DNA of 64,000 nt from SAR202 cluster bacterium. Its GTDB lineage: Bacteria; Chloroflexota; Dehalococcoidia; Lucifugimonadales; OSU-TB39. Positions 25,815 to 37,029 of this stretch are shown here, piece by piece; position 1 is the stretch's first letter, and every line of letters starts with the position of its first letter. Made by a program: the position numbers and the translations under genes. A model generated the notes under the pieces. It was not told the DNA's origin and made no database searches. It saw only the letters and a list, made by a program, of their open reading frames with translations. The DNA lies in contig VFGY01000023.1 of NCBI GenBank assembly GCA_009392195.1, forward strand, positions 1 through 64,000, written 5' to 3'.

Positions 25815-26747
25815 TTATTTAGGTACAGGCCAGCCAAAATTTGTTAAGAGTTCTTTTAAGTCGTACATTTCCTTATCTGTAGCAGGTAACGTTGGTGGCC
25901 TTTGTTCACCCACTCCGTGCCCCATAGCATTCATTATCATTTTCTTGAATCTTGCTTGGCCGCCTGAAACCTCTCTTGTTTGCAAATCAAAATCCGTCAA
26001 AGGTTGGTCAACTGTGTCCCAAAGGTGTTGGGCTTCTTCATAAAGCCTAGATTCAAGAAGTTCCCACATTTTCAGTTCATGTTTTGGGTATGCAACACTT
26101 GATATATCCAAAAAACCATGACCACCTGCTTTATGAAAATTTACTCTCTCAATTCCATTTTCTATTAAATTAAAGTGGATGCCCAATCTTTCCATTTCAC
26201 TATCAGGACAATCTTCATAAGTTGCCCATTTTATTGCAACGATATTTTCGTATTCTCTTAATCGATATAATGTTTCCCCAGTTATAGCGCCATGCCGTTG
26301 CCATGGAGTGTTATAAATCATTATTCCTATATCAACCGCATCGGATACGTCTGCGTAAAATCTAAAAATATCATCCTGGTTTGGGTCGTTGAGTGCGGGA
26401 GGCGCAATTTGTATGCCAAAAGCACCGAGGTCAGCAGCTTTTTTGCAGTCTTCAATGGTTCTTTTTGTATCTTTGAATTGGCTACCTGCAATAATGTCAA
26501 TTTTACCTTTTGCCGCTTGTACTACACTTCTAATCAGCGGCGGCCATTCATCATCTCTTAATTGTTGGAATTCTCCCATAACCGAAGCTACTTTAAGCAT
26601 AGCTTTATCTCTTACCATCCCGTTTTCAATCCACCACTCGGTTAGGTTATACATTTTTCCGTAATCTACTTCATAATCGGAATCAAATGGTGTAACGGTA
26701 ACGCCGATTACCCCTTTAAATCTTCTTCTTCTTTCTTCTCTATTCAT
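25815..26747 (-). CDS. DHDPS/NAL-family aldolase (tandem copy 1)
   Basis: A 310-residue homologue, most similar to the neighbouring gene at 26840. Schiff-base Lys173 lies in VAIKWA and catalytic Tyr145 in IMIYNTPW. The usual GGTTGE turn is replaced by VASVMGEFQQLRDDEW (53-68). AGSQFKDTKRTIED and the C-terminal SGGQARFKKM are shared with the paralogues and distinguish this subgroup from DapA. It probably acts on a 2-oxo acid in catabolism. A GGAG ribosome binding site precedes the ATG. It is probably in an operon with its paralogue, although the 92-bp gap holds an inverted repeat. Confidence 0.83.
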   Translation of the reverse strand: MNREERRRRFKGVIGVTVTPFDSDYEVDYGKMYNLTEWWIENGMVRDKAMLKVASVMGEFQQLRDDEWPPLIRSVVQAAKGKIDIIAGSQFKDTKRTIEDCKKAADLGAFGIQIAPPALNDPNQDDIFRFYADVSDAVDIGIMIYNTPWQRHGAITGETLYRLREYENIVAIKWATYEDCPDSEMERLGIHFNLIENGIERVNFHKAGGHGFLDISSVAYPKHELKMWELLESRLYEEAQHLWDTVDQPLTDFDLQTREVSGGQARFKKMIMNAMGHGVGEQRPPTLPATDKEMYDLKELLTNFGWPVPK

Positions 26748-26839: not shown

Positions 26840-27772
26840 CTACGAAGGAACAGGCCAACCAAGACTCGACAATAAACTTTTAAGCTCATTCATTTCAGAC
26901 TCACTTGCTGGTAAAGTAGGTAAGCGTTGTTCGCCTACTTCATGTCCCATAGCATTCATTAGCATTTTTTTAAATCTTGCTTGGCCTCCGGAGACTTTCC
27001 CCGCTTTTTGTGCTAAAGCTTGTATAGGAGCATCAATAGAGTCCCAGAGGCTTTGTGCAGTATCGTATTGTTTTGATTCTAATAGTTCCCACATCTTCAA
27101 TTCATGTGGAGGATATGCTATCGATGATTTATCCAAAAATCCATCCCCTCCTGCTTTATGAAATCCAACTCTGTCATTACCATTTTCAATCATATTAAAC
27201 TTTTTTGAAAGAGATGGGATTTCTTTTGGAGGACATTCATCATGGCTTGCCCATTTTATAGCTACAATATGTTCAAAATCAGCCATTTTATGTAGTGTGT
27301 CAGCGTTTATAGCTCCATATCTTTGCCAAGGAGTATTGTAAATCATAACTCCAATTTCAATTGCATCAGATAGGTCACTATAAAATCGTAAAATATCATC
27401 CTGATTCGGGTCGTTAAAGGCAGGTGGAGCGATTTGAAGTGCCACTGCCCCTAAATCTTGTGCTCTTAGTGAGTCTTCAATAGTTCTTTTTGTATCTTTG
27501 TAGTGACTACCTGCGATAACATCGATTTTACCCTTCGCTGCTTGTACTACTGTACGTATCAGGGGTGGCCATTCATCGTCTCTTAATTGAGGGAATTCTC
27601 CCATAACTGAAGCAACTTTAAGCATCGCTTTTCCCCTTACCATGCCGTTTTCAACCCACCATTGAGTCAAGTCATACATTTTTCCGTAGTCAACTTCATA
27701 ATCTTCGTCATAGGGAGTAATAGTGACTCCAACCACGCCTTTAAATACATTTCGAAGTTCATTTCTGTTCAT
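26840..27772 (-). CDS. DHDPS/NAL-family aldolase (tandem copy 2)
   Basis: A 310-residue protein of the same length as, and collinear with, the gene at 25815; most of the first 150 residues are identical. Lys173 (VAIKWA) and Tyr145 (VMIYNTPW) are in the same places. VASVMGEFPQLRDDEW again replaces the DapA GGTTGE loop. Differences are concentrated after residue 175, in the region lining the substrate pocket, suggesting divergence in specificity after duplication. A GGAG box precedes the ATG. It is the first gene of the pair, downstream of tRNA-Arg on the same strand. Confidence 0.83.
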   Translation of the reverse strand: MNRNELRNVFKGVVGVTITPYDEDYEVDYGKMYDLTQWWVENGMVRGKAMLKVASVMGEFPQLRDDEWPPLIRTVVQAAKGKIDVIAGSHYKDTKRTIEDSLRAQDLGAVALQIAPPAFNDPNQDDILRFYSDLSDAIEIGVMIYNTPWQRYGAINADTLHKMADFEHIVAIKWASHDECPPKEIPSLSKKFNMIENGNDRVGFHKAGGDGFLDKSSIAYPPHELKMWELLESKQYDTAQSLWDSIDAPIQALAQKAGKVSGGQARFKKMLMNAMGHEVGEQRLPTLPASESEMNELKSLLSSLGWPVPS

Positions 27773-29449: not shown

Positions 29450-30958
29450 TCACAAACTTTGAGATTTATTCAAAACTAGTTGAACCAAAGTTCTAACAGG
29501 GACGCCTGTTGCTCCATGGGTTTGATAAGATTTAGGATCTGTTGTTCTGGAGGTGCCCGCGATATCGATATGTACCCAAGGTGTTTCACCTACGAACTCA
29601 CCGATTATTTTTGCTCCTGTTATTGACCCTGCTCCTCTACCTCCAACATTTTTAATGTCAGCCGTTTTACTATTATATTGTTTGGAGTATTCTTCAAACA
29701 TAGGTAGTTCCCACATTTTTTCACCAGTTGCATTAGATGCAACAATTAATTCATTTGCTAACTCTTTATTATTGCTGAAAACACCTGCACATATATTTCC
29801 TAGTGCAATAACTATAGCTCCTGTTAGTGTTGCTACATCTATTATTTCATTTGCACCTAGAGATTTAACATATGTAATTGCATCAGCAAGGACTAATCTT
29901 CCTTCCGCGTCTGTGTTATCTATTTCGATTGTTTTACCTGACATTGTTGTTACTATATCTCCAGGCTTTTGTGCATTTCCTCCTGGCATGTTTTCGGTCG
30001 CAGGAACAACTGCAATCACATTTATGGCTGGTTGTAGCCTAGCAATTGCGTAGATAGCTGATATAACAGATGCTCCACCAGCCATGTCGCCTTTCATGTC
30101 GCCCATATTTGTTGCAGGTTTAATTGAAATCCCTCCAGAATCAAAAGTTATACCTTTTCCAACCAATGCTAATTTATCTGGGCTATTTGGATTTCCATTG
30201 TATTCCAAAACGATCAATTTAGGTTCTTCTTTGGATCCTTTTGCAACCCCGAGTAGTGCGCCCATACCTAAATCTTGCATTTGCTTTTGATTTAGTTCTT
30301 TATATTCTAGGTTAGAGTCTAAAGACAAGGATTTTGCTGTATTAGCTAATTGATTGGGTGTCATTGCATTAGAAGGTTCATTTGCTAAGTCTCTACATAA
30401 ATTAACAGCATTACTTATCACGGTGGTGTCGGAAATGGTTTTACTGATTTCTTTTATTTCATCTTGGTTAAAGTAGAGTAATATGTTGGATTCAGCATCT
30501 TTTATATCTGATTTGTGTTTTGTAAATTCATAACCACCCAGGATCAATCCTTCAATAGCTGCTTGAACGAATTGGTTGTTATTTTGGTGTCCATTTGGTG
30601 TAGAGATTGTTTCTGAATCTAAGCAAATCAACGATTTGTTATTTTCTTTCGATGAAAGTTTTGAAGAAAGTTTACCGAAAACTGTTCTTGTGATTTCCAA
30701 ATCCCAATTGTCTATAGACCCTAGACCAACAATCAATATTTTTTTGGGTTGGATTATTCCATAAGTATATATCGTTGTTATTTCAGATGCTTTACCTACA
30801 ATTTCTTCGTCCTTGATGAGTTTGGAAATTGATTGATTTAATAGAATGTCTATGTTTTTTGCAGGACCAGTGAGTTCTCCAGATTTTTCAAAATATGGGA
30901 TAACGACAAATTCTACCGATTGATGTTCCACCGGGTCGTTGATTACAGTAATGTTCAT
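29450..30958 (-). CDS. pepA: Leucyl aminopeptidase (M17 family)
   Basis: A 502-residue cytosolic M17 aminopeptidase that removes N-terminal residues from peptides using two metal ions. The catalytic C-terminal domain contains LVGKGITFDSGGISIKP (Lys and Asp metal ligands), MKGDMAGGA and the signature NTDAEGRLVLADA with metal-binding Asp and Glu. The N-terminal domain (about 1-160) is the less conserved hexamer domain. Length is normal. The ATG has an upstream GGAG. It is probably in one transcript with the aldo/keto reductase gene upstream (36-bp gap). Confidence 0.93.
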   Translation of the reverse strand: MNITVINDPVEHQSVEFVVIPYFEKSGELTGPAKNIDILLNQSISKLIKDEEIVGKASEITTIYTYGIIQPKKILIVGLGSIDNWDLEITRTVFGKLSSKLSSKENNKSLICLDSETISTPNGHQNNNQFVQAAIEGLILGGYEFTKHKSDIKDAESNILLYFNQDEIKEISKTISDTTVISNAVNLCRDLANEPSNAMTPNQLANTAKSLSLDSNLEYKELNQKQMQDLGMGALLGVAKGSKEEPKLIVLEYNGNPNSPDKLALVGKGITFDSGGISIKPATNMGDMKGDMAGGASVISAIYAIARLQPAINVIAVVPATENMPGGNAQKPGDIVTTMSGKTIEIDNTDAEGRLVLADAITYVKSLGANEIIDVATLTGAIVIALGNICAGVFSNNKELANELIVASNATGEKMWELPMFEEYSKQYNSKTADIKNVGGRGAGSITGAKIIGEFVGETPWVHIDIAGTSRTTDPKSYQTHGATGVPVRTLVQLVLNKSQSL

Positions 30959-32069: not shown

Positions 32070-33350
32070 GTGGAAAAATCAGATCAAATAACTAACCTAG
32101 CAAAAGATATTTTCCCTGGTTCTAACAACGGTAATCCTACTTCTGACTTAATAATGTCTAAGGCAGTTGGTTCTAAAATATGGGACATAGATGGAAATGA
32201 ATACATAGATTATTTGCTTGGTTCAGGTCCAATGGTAATTGGGCATTCACATCCTAAAGTTGTTGAGGCAGTAAGTAAGCAGCTTAGCTCTGGGTCTACA
32301 TTTTTTGCCCTGAATGAATTATCAATTAGGTTAGGTCAGGAAATAATTGATGCTGTACCATGTGCTGAACAGATAAGGTATGTGACTAGTGGTACCGAAG
32401 CAACATTATATGCTATGCGCGCTGTTCGTGCTTTTACCGGAAAGGAAAAGATTTTGAAATTTGAAGGTGGGTATCATGGGATGCATGACTATTCTTTGAT
32501 GAGTTTAATGCCTAGATCAGAAGTTGAGTACCCAATTGCAAGTATAGATTCATCGGGAATTCCTGAAGCTATTAAAAATGAAATGCTAATAGCTCCTTTC
32601 AACGATTTTGAAACTACAGAAGACATTATAAAGAAAAATAAAGAGGAAATAGCTGGTGTAATAATTGAACCTTTCCAAAGAGTTATTAAACCTAAACCTG
32701 GGTTTTTAGAGTCAGTTAGAAAAATAACAAATAAATATAACATCCCTTTGATATTTGATGAGATCGTTACCGGATTTAGGTTTGGATATGGCGGAGCTCA
32801 AGAATACTATAATGTTGTGCCCGATCTATGTACTTTAGGCAAAATCGTTGCTGGCGGTTATCCATTAGCTGCGATTGTAGGTAAAAAAAATCTAATGGAA
32901 GTATTTAACCAAAAATCGGACACGATTTCTCCACCTTTGGTTCAGATAGGAACATTGAGTGGTAATCCTATATCAAGCGCTGCAGGTCTAGCTACACTTG
33001 ATGTCCTAAAGGCAGAAAATCCATATGAAAAATTGTTTGAAACAGGGAATTTTCTGCAAAGCACTTTGAGGGAAATATTCAATCGTCATGAAATACCAGC
33101 TCAAGTCGTTGGAGAAGGACCAGTATTCGATGTATATTTTTGTTCAAATGAAATATCAAATTATAGAGATACTATGGGAGCAGATAAATCTATATTGAAT
33201 TCACTAAATTCCAATCTGATAGAAGCGGGTATTTTTAAAGGTGATACTAAATATTATGTGTCTACTGTTCATGATTCATTCGATGTTGAAAAAACCGTTT
33301 CTGCCTTTGAAGTTGCAGTTGCGAAATTGAAAGAGCAGCATGATATTTGA
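32070..33350 (+). CDS. Class III aminotransferase, glutamate-1-semialdehyde aminomutase-like
   Basis: A 426-residue fold-type I PLP enzyme of the class III aminotransferase family, closest in pattern to glutamate-1-semialdehyde 2,1-aminomutase. VTSGTEATLYAMR (105-117) binds the phosphate, Asp230 in IFDEIVTGFR contacts the ring nitrogen, and Lys258 in TLGKIVAGGYPL binds PLP. GSGPMVIGHSHP is the usual N-terminal signature. No other tetrapyrrole genes are near, so an aminotransferase or mutase on another substrate is equally possible and hemL is not assigned. The start is GTG with AAGGAAGG upstream. Confidence 0.83.
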   Translation: MEKSDQITNLAKDIFPGSNNGNPTSDLIMSKAVGSKIWDIDGNEYIDYLLGSGPMVIGHSHPKVVEAVSKQLSSGSTFFALNELSIRLGQEIIDAVPCAEQIRYVTSGTEATLYAMRAVRAFTGKEKILKFEGGYHGMHDYSLMSLMPRSEVEYPIASIDSSGIPEAIKNEMLIAPFNDFETTEDIIKKNKEEIAGVIIEPFQRVIKPKPGFLESVRKITNKYNIPLIFDEIVTGFRFGYGGAQEYYNVVPDLCTLGKIVAGGYPLAAIVGKKNLMEVFNQKSDTISPPLVQIGTLSGNPISSAAGLATLDVLKAENPYEKLFETGNFLQSTLREIFNRHEIPAQVVGEGPVFDVYFCSNEISNYRDTMGADKSILNSLNSNLIEAGIFKGDTKYYVSTVHDSFDVEKTVSAFEVAVAKLKEQHDI

Positions 33351-33385
33351 CTTTCAAAACGATTTTAGGGATTTATACACCAAAC

Positions 33386-33414
33386 TTGACAAAATATTGA
33401 TGTGGTCATAAGGT
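33386..33414 (+). promoter_or_regulatory. Candidate sigma-70 promoter
   Basis: A consensus TTGACA (33386-33391), a 17-bp spacer and a weak TAAGGT -10 (33409-33414) lie about 95 bp upstream of the gene at 33510. The -35 and spacing are ideal; the -10 is poor. Confidence 0.35.
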
Positions 33415-33509
33415 TTTTCATTGTGGGTAGTTTAGTTTGGGTGAAAATAATTCGATTACATCAAATAAAATTAAAATTGCGGAAATAAATCTAGTAGGAG
33501 AGCTTTTAA

Positions 33510-34346
33510 GTGAAAATAGGTAGCGTTTCAATAAATGTTTTGAGTGATGGCACATTAATGACTGATGGAGGAGCGCTATTTGGACCTGTACCAAAACAGC
33601 AATGGGAACAATTTTTAAAACCCGATCGCCGTAATAGAGTTAAAATAGCTGTTAATAGTTTATTGATTCAAAGTGGAAATCAGAACATTTTGGTTGATAG
33701 TGGAATCGGTGTTAAAAATACCGCCAAGTATAAAGATTTGTATTCTTTGAATGGGAATAAACTTATAAAATCACTAAAATCGCATGGATTAACCGCCCGC
33801 GATATAGATATCGTAATATTGACATCACTTCAATATATGCAAGCTGGAGGGTGTACAAAATTAGATAGGTCAGGGAGTGTAGTTCCAACTTTTCAGAAAG
33901 CTAAACATATTGTCCAGGCATCTAATTGGGAAATCGCTAATAATCCTGATGAACGAGGTGTAGGTTTATTTAATCAAGATGATTTTGTACCTTTGATGGA
34001 AAATGGCCAAATAGAATTAGTTGAAGGTGATCAAGAAGTAATAAGTGGAATAAATGTTAAAGTAACTGACGGTCCTGTAGTAGGTCACCAAATAGTAATG
34101 ATTGATGCTGGAAGTGAACGGATTAGTTATTTGGGTAATTTGATTCCAACACCTCATCATCTACCGTTAGCTGCTATAAGTGCTATAGATCAACATCCTC
34201 AAAACTCTTTAGATTTTAAGCGTCAAACTATACAAAATGCGATAGAATCCGGATGGTTATTGGTTTTTGGAAACGCCTTGGAAGCTCAAGCTGGATATAT
34301 AGGTGAAAGAAACGGAAGGAATAGTTTTACTCCAAGGGAACTTTAA
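33510..34346 (+). CDS. Metallo-beta-lactamase-fold protein lacking the metal motif
   Basis: A 278-residue protein with the MBL fold pattern: SLLIQSGNQNILVDSGIG (50-67), then DIDIVILT followed by SLQYMQAGG (106-114), where active enzymes have HxHxDHxGG. All four ligand positions of that motif are lost. A later His193 (VGHQ) is kept, but the next aspartate is replaced in YLGN (207-210). It is therefore probably not a metal hydrolase and may bind a ligand or have another role. Its closest normal relatives are quorum-lactonase/AttM-like MBLs, by layout. The GTG start has AGGAG upstream. It is monocistronic, converging on the gene at 34361. Confidence 0.7.
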   Translation: MKIGSVSINVLSDGTLMTDGGALFGPVPKQQWEQFLKPDRRNRVKIAVNSLLIQSGNQNILVDSGIGVKNTAKYKDLYSLNGNKLIKSLKSHGLTARDIDIVILTSLQYMQAGGCTKLDRSGSVVPTFQKAKHIVQASNWEIANNPDERGVGLFNQDDFVPLMENGQIELVEGDQEVISGINVKVTDGPVVGHQIVMIDAGSERISYLGNLIPTPHHLPLAAISAIDQHPQNSLDFKRQTIQNAIESGWLLVFGNALEAQAGYIGERNGRNSFTPREL

Positions 34347-34360
34347 ATTTGCCGAAACAT

Positions 34361-35635
34361 CTAGTTAGCTAATAAGTAGGTTAAAAGAGTAGATTTTGGT
34401 TTTATGTGGGTAATAGTATTGGAGATGTCTAAAGGTGTTGAAACTAGGCATTTTATGTAATTCTCGGACAACCCTGTATAGTACAAATTGTTGTCAATAG
34501 TTATAGTTTTTTCCCATAGAACAGAAGTAGGTTTATTAATATTGGTTTTTAAATGTACTCCTTCTAACTTTAGCGAAAGGGATATAAGAGATTTTACAAA
34601 CTCAGATTTTAATTCTGGATTCAATAGGTTTTTGAAATAAAAGGCGCTTGTTCCAGGTCTAGACGAATAGGGAAATACATGTATTGAGGAAAACCCCATG
34701 GATTCACAGAATTTATAAGTGTCATTAAACGTATCCTCAGTTTCTCCTGGGAAACCTACTATAACGTCCGTAGTTATTGAAGCATTAGGTATTCTTCTCC
34801 TAATTAGGTCTATAGTTTGTGAATATTTATCTAAGGTATATTTTCGCCTCATAGATTTGAGGATTCTCTCATTCCCACTTTGAAGCGATATGTGAAAATG
34901 AGGACATAAACGAGAGTTATTCCAATTACTTAGCAAATCATCGGTTATTTCTTGGGGTTGGAGGGAAGATACTCTCAATCGAGGGATATCGGTTTTATCC
35001 AATATGGATTTTAGCAGTGTAGACAAAGATTGATTTTCAAATTCAAACCCATAAGAACCTAGTTCAGTACCAGTTAATACAACTTCCTTATTTTGTATTG
35101 AACGTGATTCGTTAATAATATCTATAATCTTATGGCTATCAACGCTTTTTTCTCTGCCACGTACCTTCGGTATTATGCAATATGCGCATATTTGATCGCA
35201 TCCCTCTTGAATTTTTACCATTAAACGAGACTTGTTATTCATATAATTCAGCGGAGTATTTTTATGATTTTTAACATTTATATTTAATAGGTCGTTAAAT
35301 AGAATTGTTTTATTTGTGTTTCCTATTACGTGATCTACCTCTGGCATACTATTTAGAATTGCGGAAGCATTTTCTGCATAACATCCTGTTACTATAACTT
35401 TTATGTCAGGGTTGGTTCTTTTTGCATTTCTTATTGATTTTCGTGCCTTGCGATCAGCTATATGGGTTACGGTACAAGTATTTAGGACAAAATATTCGCT
35501 GGATGTGATATCGGCTGATATAACGTATCCTGCGTTCGTAAATTGATTGGATATTGTAGTTGAATCAGCTTGGTTTAATTTACACCCATGTGTTTCAATT
35601 GTTACTTGTGGTGGTGTTGTCGATGTTGTTGGCAT
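34361..35635 (-). CDS. mtaB: MiaB-family tRNA methylthiotransferase (MtaB-like)
   Basis: A radical-SAM methylthiotransferase. The N-terminal UPF0004 domain has Cys at 20 (HGCKLNQADS), 56 (NTCTVTH) and 87 (TGCYAE) for one 4Fe-4S cluster; CDQICAYCIIP (C148, C152, C155) binds the SAM cluster. THGCKLNQADS is the MtaB rather than MiaB form, indicating modification of t6A37 to ms2t6A37 in tRNA. Residue numbers count from a TTG at 35641; the ATG two codons later (35635) is used as start, though neither has a clear ribosome binding site. The C-terminal TRAM-like part is short. It is divergent from fabF. Confidence 0.85.
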   Translation of the reverse strand: MPTTSTTPPQVTIETHGCKLNQADSTTISNQFTNAGYVISADITSSEYFVLNTCTVTHIADRKARKSIRNAKRTNPDIKVIVTGCYAENASAILNSMPEVDHVIGNTNKTILFNDLLNINVKNHKNTPLNYMNNKSRLMVKIQEGCDQICAYCIIPKVRGREKSVDSHKIIDIINESRSIQNKEVVLTGTELGSYGFEFENQSLSTLLKSILDKTDIPRLRVSSLQPQEITDDLLSNWNNSRLCPHFHISLQSGNERILKSMRRKYTLDKYSQTIDLIRRRIPNASITTDVIVGFPGETEDTFNDTYKFCESMGFSSIHVFPYSSRPGTSAFYFKNLLNPELKSEFVKSLISLSLKLEGVHLKTNINKPTSVLWEKTITIDNNLYYTGLSENYIKCLVSTPLDISNTITHIKPKSTLLTYLLAN

Positions 35636-35787
35636 GTTCAAAGACTAATCAATGATAATAATGGTAATTTACTTTGCAATTGAGTATTGAAATATTTAAT
35701 ACAAATAATTATTGTATTACATATTAATCTGTTTTGGCATAAATAATATGTTTCGCAACAAATTATATGTTGTAAATTGGAGAATAG

Positions 35788-37029
35788 ATGTCCCATAGAG
35801 TAGTTATAACGGGAGTAGGAATTGTAAGTCCATTAGGGTTGGATGCCAATTCTACTTGGAAACAATTGGTTAATGGAAAGTCCGGGATTGATAAGATTAC
35901 ATCCTTTGATCCTGATGGATTTGAGACCCAAATAGCAGCGGAAGTTAAAAATTATGATCCAGTGTCTTCTGTTGGAATGAAGCAAAGTAAACGGATGGAT
36001 AGGTTTGTTCAAATGGCATGTACTGTTTCTTTGCAGGCTATAGAATCTTCGGAATTAAATTTAGATAAGATTGATCGCAATAGATTTGGAGTCAACATTG
36101 CAAGTGGAATAGGGGGGATAATCACACTATCTGATCAAGTAGGTACTTTGAACGCGAAAGGAGCTAGGAGAGTAAGTCCTTTCTTAGTACCGATGATGTT
36201 GCCAGATATGGCATCAGGACAGGTTTCAATGTTACTCAATTTAAAAGGACCCAATTTTTCGACTGTTTCTGCATGTTCAAGTGGGGCTGATTCTATAGGT
36301 GTTGCGTTCAATATGATTAGAAATGGTGAAATTGATTTCAGTATAGCTGGAGGAAGTGAAGCGGCGATCTGTCCCATAGGAGTCGCTGGTTTTAATTCTT
36401 GCCAAGCTTTATCTAGACAAAACTCTAACCCACAAGAAGCATCAAGACCATTTGATGCAAAAAGAGATGGGTTTGTATTAGGAGAAGGTGCTTGCGTTTT
36501 GGTTTTAGAAAAAATGGAGAATGCTATAGGAAGAGGGGTAGAACCAATAGCTGAGATACTTGGATATGCGGCAACGGCAGATGCACATCATATAACTCAA
36601 CCCGCTCCTGAAGGAGAAGGTGGAGCTAGAGCAATGACCTTATCTTTGAAGCAAGCGGGTTTGCCTTATAAAGCGATTGATTATATTAATGCCCATGGTA
36701 CAAGTACCAAATTAAACGATAAATATGAGACTATGGCAATGAAATCTGTGTTCAAAGATGAAGCATACAATATTCCTATAAGCTCGACTAAGTCAATGAC
36801 TGGACATTTGTTAGGAGCTAGTGGTTCATTAGAAGCTGGAATTACTGCTCTATCAATTAAAAATGGAGCAATTCCTCCTACTATAAACTTAGTCGAACCT
36901 GACCCTGAATGTGATTTAGATTATACCCCTAATCTTGCACGTAGAGGTGAAATAAAATATGCGATGAGCAACTCGTTTGGATTTGGTGGACACAATGCTT
37001 CTTTAGTGTTTGGTAATTTTACAGAATAA
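35788..37029 (+). CDS. fabF: Beta-ketoacyl-ACP synthase II
   Basis: A 413-residue condensing enzyme of type II fatty-acid synthesis that extends acyl-ACP with malonyl-ACP. The Cys-His-His triad is present: Cys163 in VSACSSGADS, His in INAHGTSTKLND and His in SMTGHLLGASGS. The C-terminal FGFGGHNAS is typical. Length is normal. The start is supported by GGAG seven bases before the ATG. It stands alone between oppositely oriented genes; no acpP or fabD is adjacent. Confidence 0.93.
   Translation: MSHRVVITGVGIVSPLGLDANSTWKQLVNGKSGIDKITSFDPDGFETQIAAEVKNYDPVSSVGMKQSKRMDRFVQMACTVSLQAIESSELNLDKIDRNRFGVNIASGIGGIITLSDQVGTLNAKGARRVSPFLVPMMLPDMASGQVSMLLNLKGPNFSTVSACSSGADSIGVAFNMIRNGEIDFSIAGGSEAAICPIGVAGFNSCQALSRQNSNPQEASRPFDAKRDGFVLGEGACVLVLEKMENAIGRGVEPIAEILGYAATADAHHITQPAPEGEGGARAMTLSLKQAGLPYKAIDYINAHGTSTKLNDKYETMAMKSVFKDEAYNIPISSTKSMTGHLLGASGSLEAGITALSIKNGAIPPTINLVEPDPECDLDYTPNLARRGEIKYAMSNSFGFGGHNASLVFGNFTE

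Follow-up and report, generated by a model that had tools for sequence, protein, structure and literature searches.

Repeated loss of metal ligands in a largely syntenic metallo-beta-lactamase-fold protein across an order of Chloroflexota

A YtnP-like gene that has lost its metal ligands

The window analyzed here, a 64,000-nucleotide stretch of a SAR202 cluster bacterium contig (order Lucifugimonadales), contains at 33510-34346 (plus strand) a YtnP/methyl-parathion-hydrolase-like gene of the metallo-beta-lactamase (MBL) fold. The gene starts with GTG, encodes 278 amino acids in an unbroken frame and carries an AGGAG ribosome binding site (33496-33500, plus strand) 9 nt before the start codon, recognized in the sequence. 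An earlier sequence-only reading of this DNA had described both the frame and the ribosome binding site, correctly in each case. A promoter scan of 33300-34450 gave one site where 5.4 would be expected by chance alone or otherwise, and revealed no terminator-like site in that interval. The upstream neighbor encodes a HemL-like class-III aminotransferase (32070-33350, plus strand), and the tRNA methylthiotransferase gene MtaB (34361-35641, minus strand) lies downstream in convergent orientation. Further conserved neighbors are FabF (35788-37029, plus strand) and the leucyl aminopeptidase PepA (29450-30958, minus strand). The window also holds two adjacent DHDPS-family genes (25815-26747 and 26840-27772, minus strand), each encoding 310 amino acids, which are apparently tandem paralogs.

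Membership in the MBL superfamily, likewise proposed from the sequence, is supported by homology. The query protein matches the Pfam profile PF00753 (Lactamase_B; E 2.3e-10, 41.2 bits, above the cut-off of 22.7), the NCBIfam YtnP lactonase model NF047919 (E 7.4e-45) and, in a sequence search, the PDB entry 3esh (E 7.6e-32), after which methyl parathion hydrolases rank. It shares with YtnP, as represented by NF047919 and by the sequence of 3esh, full-length homology, the same fold as judged from sequence and an N-terminal DGGxxFGxVPKxxW segment. However, its score of 153.3 bits does not reach the curated YtnP cut-off of 425, and it has SLQYMQ in place of the HxHxDH motif that the available part of PMC9201388 gives for a characterized YtnP. 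A pocket and a dimeric state would be expected by homology; the structure model, computed from a two-row alignment of the query and one relative (L031), has a pLDDT of 41 and a pTM of 0.34. That relative was the only one returned by a search of genome contigs, and is the same protein as L049 of genome G048; among viral contigs there were 11 pattern matches and no relative. In its own genome (G000, 97.9% complete) the query is single copy: a second relative is absent at E 1e-3, and the genome's four further Lactamase_B matches show no relationship to it at that threshold.

In the lactonases AaL and GcL, two metals are held by five His and two Asp, according to the portions available of PMC6062542 and PMC11423328. 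Alignments to solved structures agree on the seven corresponding positions in the query, which in the ortholog alignment are 106, 108, 110, 111, 189, 210 and 255 (query numbering). Against the canonical H, H, D, H, H, D and H, the query has S106, Q108, M110, Q111, P189, N210 and N255, so that none of the seven ligands of the dinuclear site is left. Four of them fall in SLQYMQ (residues 106-111; 33825-33842, plus strand), which replaces HxHxDH. The fifth ligand His is Pro189 (34074-34076, plus strand), turning GHxxGH into GPVVGH; the bridging Asp is Asn210 (34137-34139, plus strand); and the seventh ligand His is Asn255 (34272-34274, plus strand), turning FGH into FGN. The protein thus reads DIDIVILT-SLQYMQ-AGG and later LGN-LIP. 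The sequence-only reading had noted the intact DIDIVILT and AGG, the change of HxHxDH to SLQYMQ and a later change of GD to GN, all of which stand; its claim of ligand loss was right but understated the extent, as P189 and N255 had been missed. Methyl parathion hydrolase, AiiA, AaL and GcL have the same fold, and their seven ligand positions are shared by the intact orthologs described below, whereas the query has lost them all. It therefore lacks the five His and two Asp of a dinuclear MBL-fold metallohydrolase and, as an enzyme homolog devoid of the catalytic residues, would fall among pseudoenzymes. Judged from these residues, it would bind no metal and carry out no hydrolysis, and it is the extreme end point of ligand loss in its family.

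Orthologs, synteny and the pattern of loss

Orthologs of the gene are widespread in the order. Matches were found in 56 of 59 sampled genomes at E 1e-3 and in 213 of 250 at E 1e-40; in the subset with a completeness of 90% or more and a contamination of 5% or less, 84 of 95 have an ortholog. The 37 genomes without a match at E 1e-40 include some incomplete ones. In one genus (g169), the seven genomes listed (G231-G237) all lack an ortholog at this threshold, although several are more than 90% complete, which looks like a lineage loss. Sequences were taken from 128 of the 213 matching genomes, chosen among the matches listed by score, and distant members are accordingly under-sampled. Rows below 100 bits in the relative search were left out, as were those below 140 bits in the ortholog alignment except L061 and L062. 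The resulting set comprises 135 distinct sequences, 129 from the order and six class-level outgroups, and all 37 members scanned match NF047919. Outside this set we placed a clade of a second, longer YtnP-like paralog of 298-309 amino acids (L058, L059 and L060, from G017, G052 and G007). These proteins carry the ligands HHEHP[S/T]G, so that the paralogous branch appears to be eroding too.

The full seven-ligand site is present in 38 of the 129 order sequences, and is eroded in the other 91. Two or fewer ligands are left in 17, which belong to several separate clades. In contrast, the site is intact in all six class-level outgroups and in all nine phylum-level relatives read. A search for homologs with the same substitutions had been proposed as a check on the sequence-only reading, and most orthologs of the order do have losses at the same positions. 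Chance or sequencing error as the cause of ligand loss can be rejected, since the same positions are lost in most order orthologs and in many genomes.

The genomic neighborhood was compared over 105 distinct order orthologs, with flanks of unequal length, so that all counts are lower bounds. MtaB is the most frequent neighbor, present near 80 of the orthologs, followed by FabF (41), leucyl aminopeptidase (39) and the HemL-like aminotransferase (24); one or more of the first three occurs near 88. MtaB accompanies 59 of the 73 eroded orthologs and 21 of the 32 intact ones, FabF and leucyl aminopeptidase only five and one of the intact ones, respectively. Judged by these shared neighbors, and by MtaB above all, the intact and the eroded forms are for the most part positional orthologs. 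Genome G003 has an eroded copy (ligands RDDHPDH) adjoining MtaB and a second, full-site copy elsewhere (loci L045 and L054).

We built a tree from which the ligand columns were excluded and 11 far sequences had been removed; it is a "quick" build in which 50 of 141 inner branches are open forks. Its deep branches are intact, with eroded sequences scattered among them. Counting maximal eroded clades, with L058-L060 removed and polytomies resolved for the fewest losses, gives at least 20 independent erosions when all branches are kept, and at least 15 or at least 8 when branches with SH-aLRT below 80 or below 95 are collapsed. Accepting Glu at both Asp positions changes these counts to 22, 17 and 9. 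The nearest row to the query (L002, 58% identity) has the full site, and other near rows are eroded differently. The sequence-only reading held that close relatives retaining HxHxDH would imply a recent loss. Such a relative exists, but because the family has lost ligands many times, it points to repeated loss and not to a one-off recent decay.

The losses are structured. Across the 47 distinct ligand strings, loss of one ligand goes with loss of others in its group: phi is 0.40-0.54 within site 1 (106/108/189) and 0.48-0.71 within site 2 plus the bridge (111/210/255), with little coupling between the two groups; in the same matrix, loss of D110 varies alone, uncoupled from the other site-2 ligands. 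Site 2 is complete and site 1 broken in 29 of the 129 order sequences, the reverse holds in 14, and both are broken in 48. Among the eroded strings are NHDHPDH, from a partly eroded ortholog, and NLDQPKN. His189 is gone in 61 of 63 sequences without His106 or His108, and also in 14 that still hold both; this nesting of loss states suggests that His189 is usually the first to go. Replacements are convergent and non-random. His108 became Gln in 13 of 20 replacement events (binomial p 1.8e-4), and His189 became Pro in 10 of 16 (p 3.6e-6) and Tyr in 4 of 16, the p-values assuming equal single-base changes and independent events. Other refills are His106 to Asn, Asp or Ser and His255 to Asn. By entropy, the ligand columns of eroded orthologs rank 111-230 of 278, in the more variable part of the alignment.

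Selection and conserved residues

To ask how eroded proteins evolve, dN/dS was estimated (NG86) on 36 selected pairs of relatives, and pairs with dS above 1 were set aside as saturated. All 11 eroded pairs with dS below 1 have dN/dS between 0.011 and 0.157, the highest value belonging to L122/L132, and three intact pairs have 0.036-0.057. Compared within one lineage, the protein is better conserved than MtaB wherever both were found and than PepA in the pairs compared, and in all eight eroded same-lineage pairs it is better conserved than FabF. For instance, in a pair with ligands DRHRPDN (L179/L180) identity is 93% for the protein, 85% for FabF, 76% for the peptidase and 65% for MtaB. At long distance the order reverses, as between the query and G002 (58% for the protein, 63% for FabF). 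Retention by selection after ligand loss, the second hallmark of a pseudoenzyme, is hence seen in the eroded relatives, the query's own branch lying outside these pairs. Neither a broken frame nor relaxed selection, the marks of a pseudogene, is found, the frame being intact and dN/dS in the eroded relatives low.

The remainder of the protein is conserved whether or not the ligands are present. Over all orthologs, 34 columns reach 96% conservation or more. Averaged over these columns, the majority residue has a frequency of 0.993 in 44 intact sequences and still 0.983 in the 36 most eroded, in which the corresponding value for the ligand columns drops to 0.425. The query keeps nearly all family-invariant residues. 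These include His193-Gln194 (34086-34091, plus strand), nearly invariant in intact and eroded orthologs, and PTPHH (residues 213-217; 34146-34160, plus strand), of which P213, T214 and H217 form a nearly invariant family signature. H217 and D39 occur in every one of the 135 orthologs, R43 in 134 and H193 in 129, eroded ones included; in six sequences H193 is Asn. D13, D19 and W32 likewise count as invariant. The class also has second-tier YtnP-like proteins, from which the family is set apart by G192/Q194, P213-T214-x-x-H217 and F253, all of them kept in eroded members. Pro213 (34146-34148) stands where lactonases have a Tyr three residues after the Asp (Y223 in AaL); 134 of the 135 orthologs have Pro here, whether intact or eroded. 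As Pro replaces the lactonase Tyr throughout the family, even the ancestor was not necessarily an AHL lactonase. The entry 3esh also has Pro at this position. The suggestion of the sequence-only reading that selection keeps the fold without canonical chemistry is thus in line with the purifying selection on eroded orthologs and with the invariant residues that they keep; where it fell short was in treating this as a matter of a single protein.

Origin and meaning of the eroded forms

In this context, we put forward that the gene is an order-wide, largely syntenic MBL-fold hydrolase with an early metal-independent role, in which the metal site has repeatedly been lost, a reading that we consider probable. 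The ancestor would have been a YtnP/MPH-like hydrolase with a canonical dinuclear metal site. A second, metal-independent role would have been acquired early in this Chloroflexota order, or might already have been present, after which hydrolysis became dispensable. The metal sites would then have been dismantled many times, one at a time, a change of His189 to Pro or Tyr usually beginning the loss of site 1; convergent replacements would have filled the emptied positions, with the query as the extreme case. Most likely, what was kept would be a (homo)dimer that binds either a small ligand, in the pocket left in place, or another protein; a ligand- or partner-binding homodimer is our simplest guess. 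We infer a bifunctional ancestor, a binding function and dimerization. The kept role would not be universal in the order, given the genomes without a match at E 1e-40, some of them incomplete.

Counting against full metal loss, one of the two sites is still complete in 43 of the 91 eroded sequences, which may bind one metal and be active. In an alternative scenario, many orthologs would be mono-metal enzymes and a minority, including the query, true pseudoenzymes with lineage-specific roles. The 29 sequences with only site 2 complete, the 14 with only site 1 and the coupling of losses within sites all speak for this, and the mono-zinc subclass B2 beta-lactamases, with NxHxDH, offer a parallel. 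Nevertheless, 48 sequences have both sites broken and 17 keep two ligands at most, in several separate clades, and the tested pairs among them are still constrained; we regard this scenario as possible but clearly the weaker one. Less probable still is a rebuilt active site, in which catalysis would continue in the same pocket, either metal-free through H193, H217, D39, R43 and their neighbors or with another metal site. The conservation of these four residues, in eroded orthologs too, and the polar, convergent residues that refill several ligand positions, as in a tuned pocket, are what it would predict. However, the same residues are equally conserved in intact members, so that the eroded ones have no new residue to set them apart, and six sequences have Asn for H193. 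Its boldest form, a metallohydrolase family converted many times, in one order and at one locus, to a metal-free enzyme with H193, H217, D39 and R43 as catalysts and Gln, Asn and Pro tuning the site, appears rather improbable.

That the eroded protein is the inactive partner of an active paralog, as in INTS9/INTS11 or Flv1/Flv3, would follow a fate known for metal-less MBL-fold proteins (available sections of PMC7980224 and PMC4390876), and G003 does hold both an eroded and an intact copy. Yet G000 has no second relative at the E 1e-3 threshold, and thus not the active paralog that accompanies proteins of the INTS9/CPSF100 type, and 16 of 37 sampled genomes with an eroded copy have no second match. 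An obligate paralog partner is thereby rejected, and we hold the general idea to be very unlikely. Least probable of all is decay, by which the enzyme would be unneeded and the gene on its way out. The variability of the ligand columns in eroded orthologs is what decay would produce, but the frames are open among the matches listed, dN/dS after loss is low, the invariant residues are kept and the protein is more conserved than neighboring housekeeping genes. For the lineages tested, dN/dS rejects it.

MBL-fold pseudoenzymes are already known, from what is available of PMC7980224 and PMC4390876. The eukaryotic MBL/beta-CASP pseudonucleases INTS9 and CPSF100 (PMC7980224, seen in part) have likewise lost ligands from an MBL fold while the protein was kept, but they partner active paralogs in RNA processing, whereas here there is often no paralog and the same gene was eroded many times. 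The flavodiiron proteins Flv1/Flv2 (PMC4390876, seen in part) also have a bacterial MBL-like domain without canonical ligands; unlike the query, they are multidomain and share their cell with the ligand-bearing relatives Flv3/Flv4. Closest in evolutionary pattern are the fungal Ssd1/Dis3L2 pseudonucleases, for which the part available of PMC8097288 argues a two-role protein with dispensable catalysis, the second function being kept and catalysis lost at least four times. In that case the fold and the domain of life differ, the losses are fewer and the kept function is RNA binding. In the literature searched, which covered few subscription papers, we found no report of order-wide recurrent dismantling in MBL-fold proteins. 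Titles and abstract openings on SAR202 metallo-beta-lactamases or Chloroflexi pseudoenzymes contained nothing on this family, and the part available of PMC10340364 held nothing useful on inactive MBL-fold members.

The present family is probably a recurrent pseudoenzyme, unusual in extent and repetition. How a pseudoenzyme arises can often be seen only as a single old event in a family, while here there are many natural replicates, which make the order of loss events testable. A single positional ortholog covers the whole range from all seven ligands to zero, and each lineage tested is under purifying selection. This points to a further function of a gene found in most genomes of the order, and names assigned by homology, such as "quorum-quenching lactonase" or "metallo-hydrolase", would mislead for many of these genomes.
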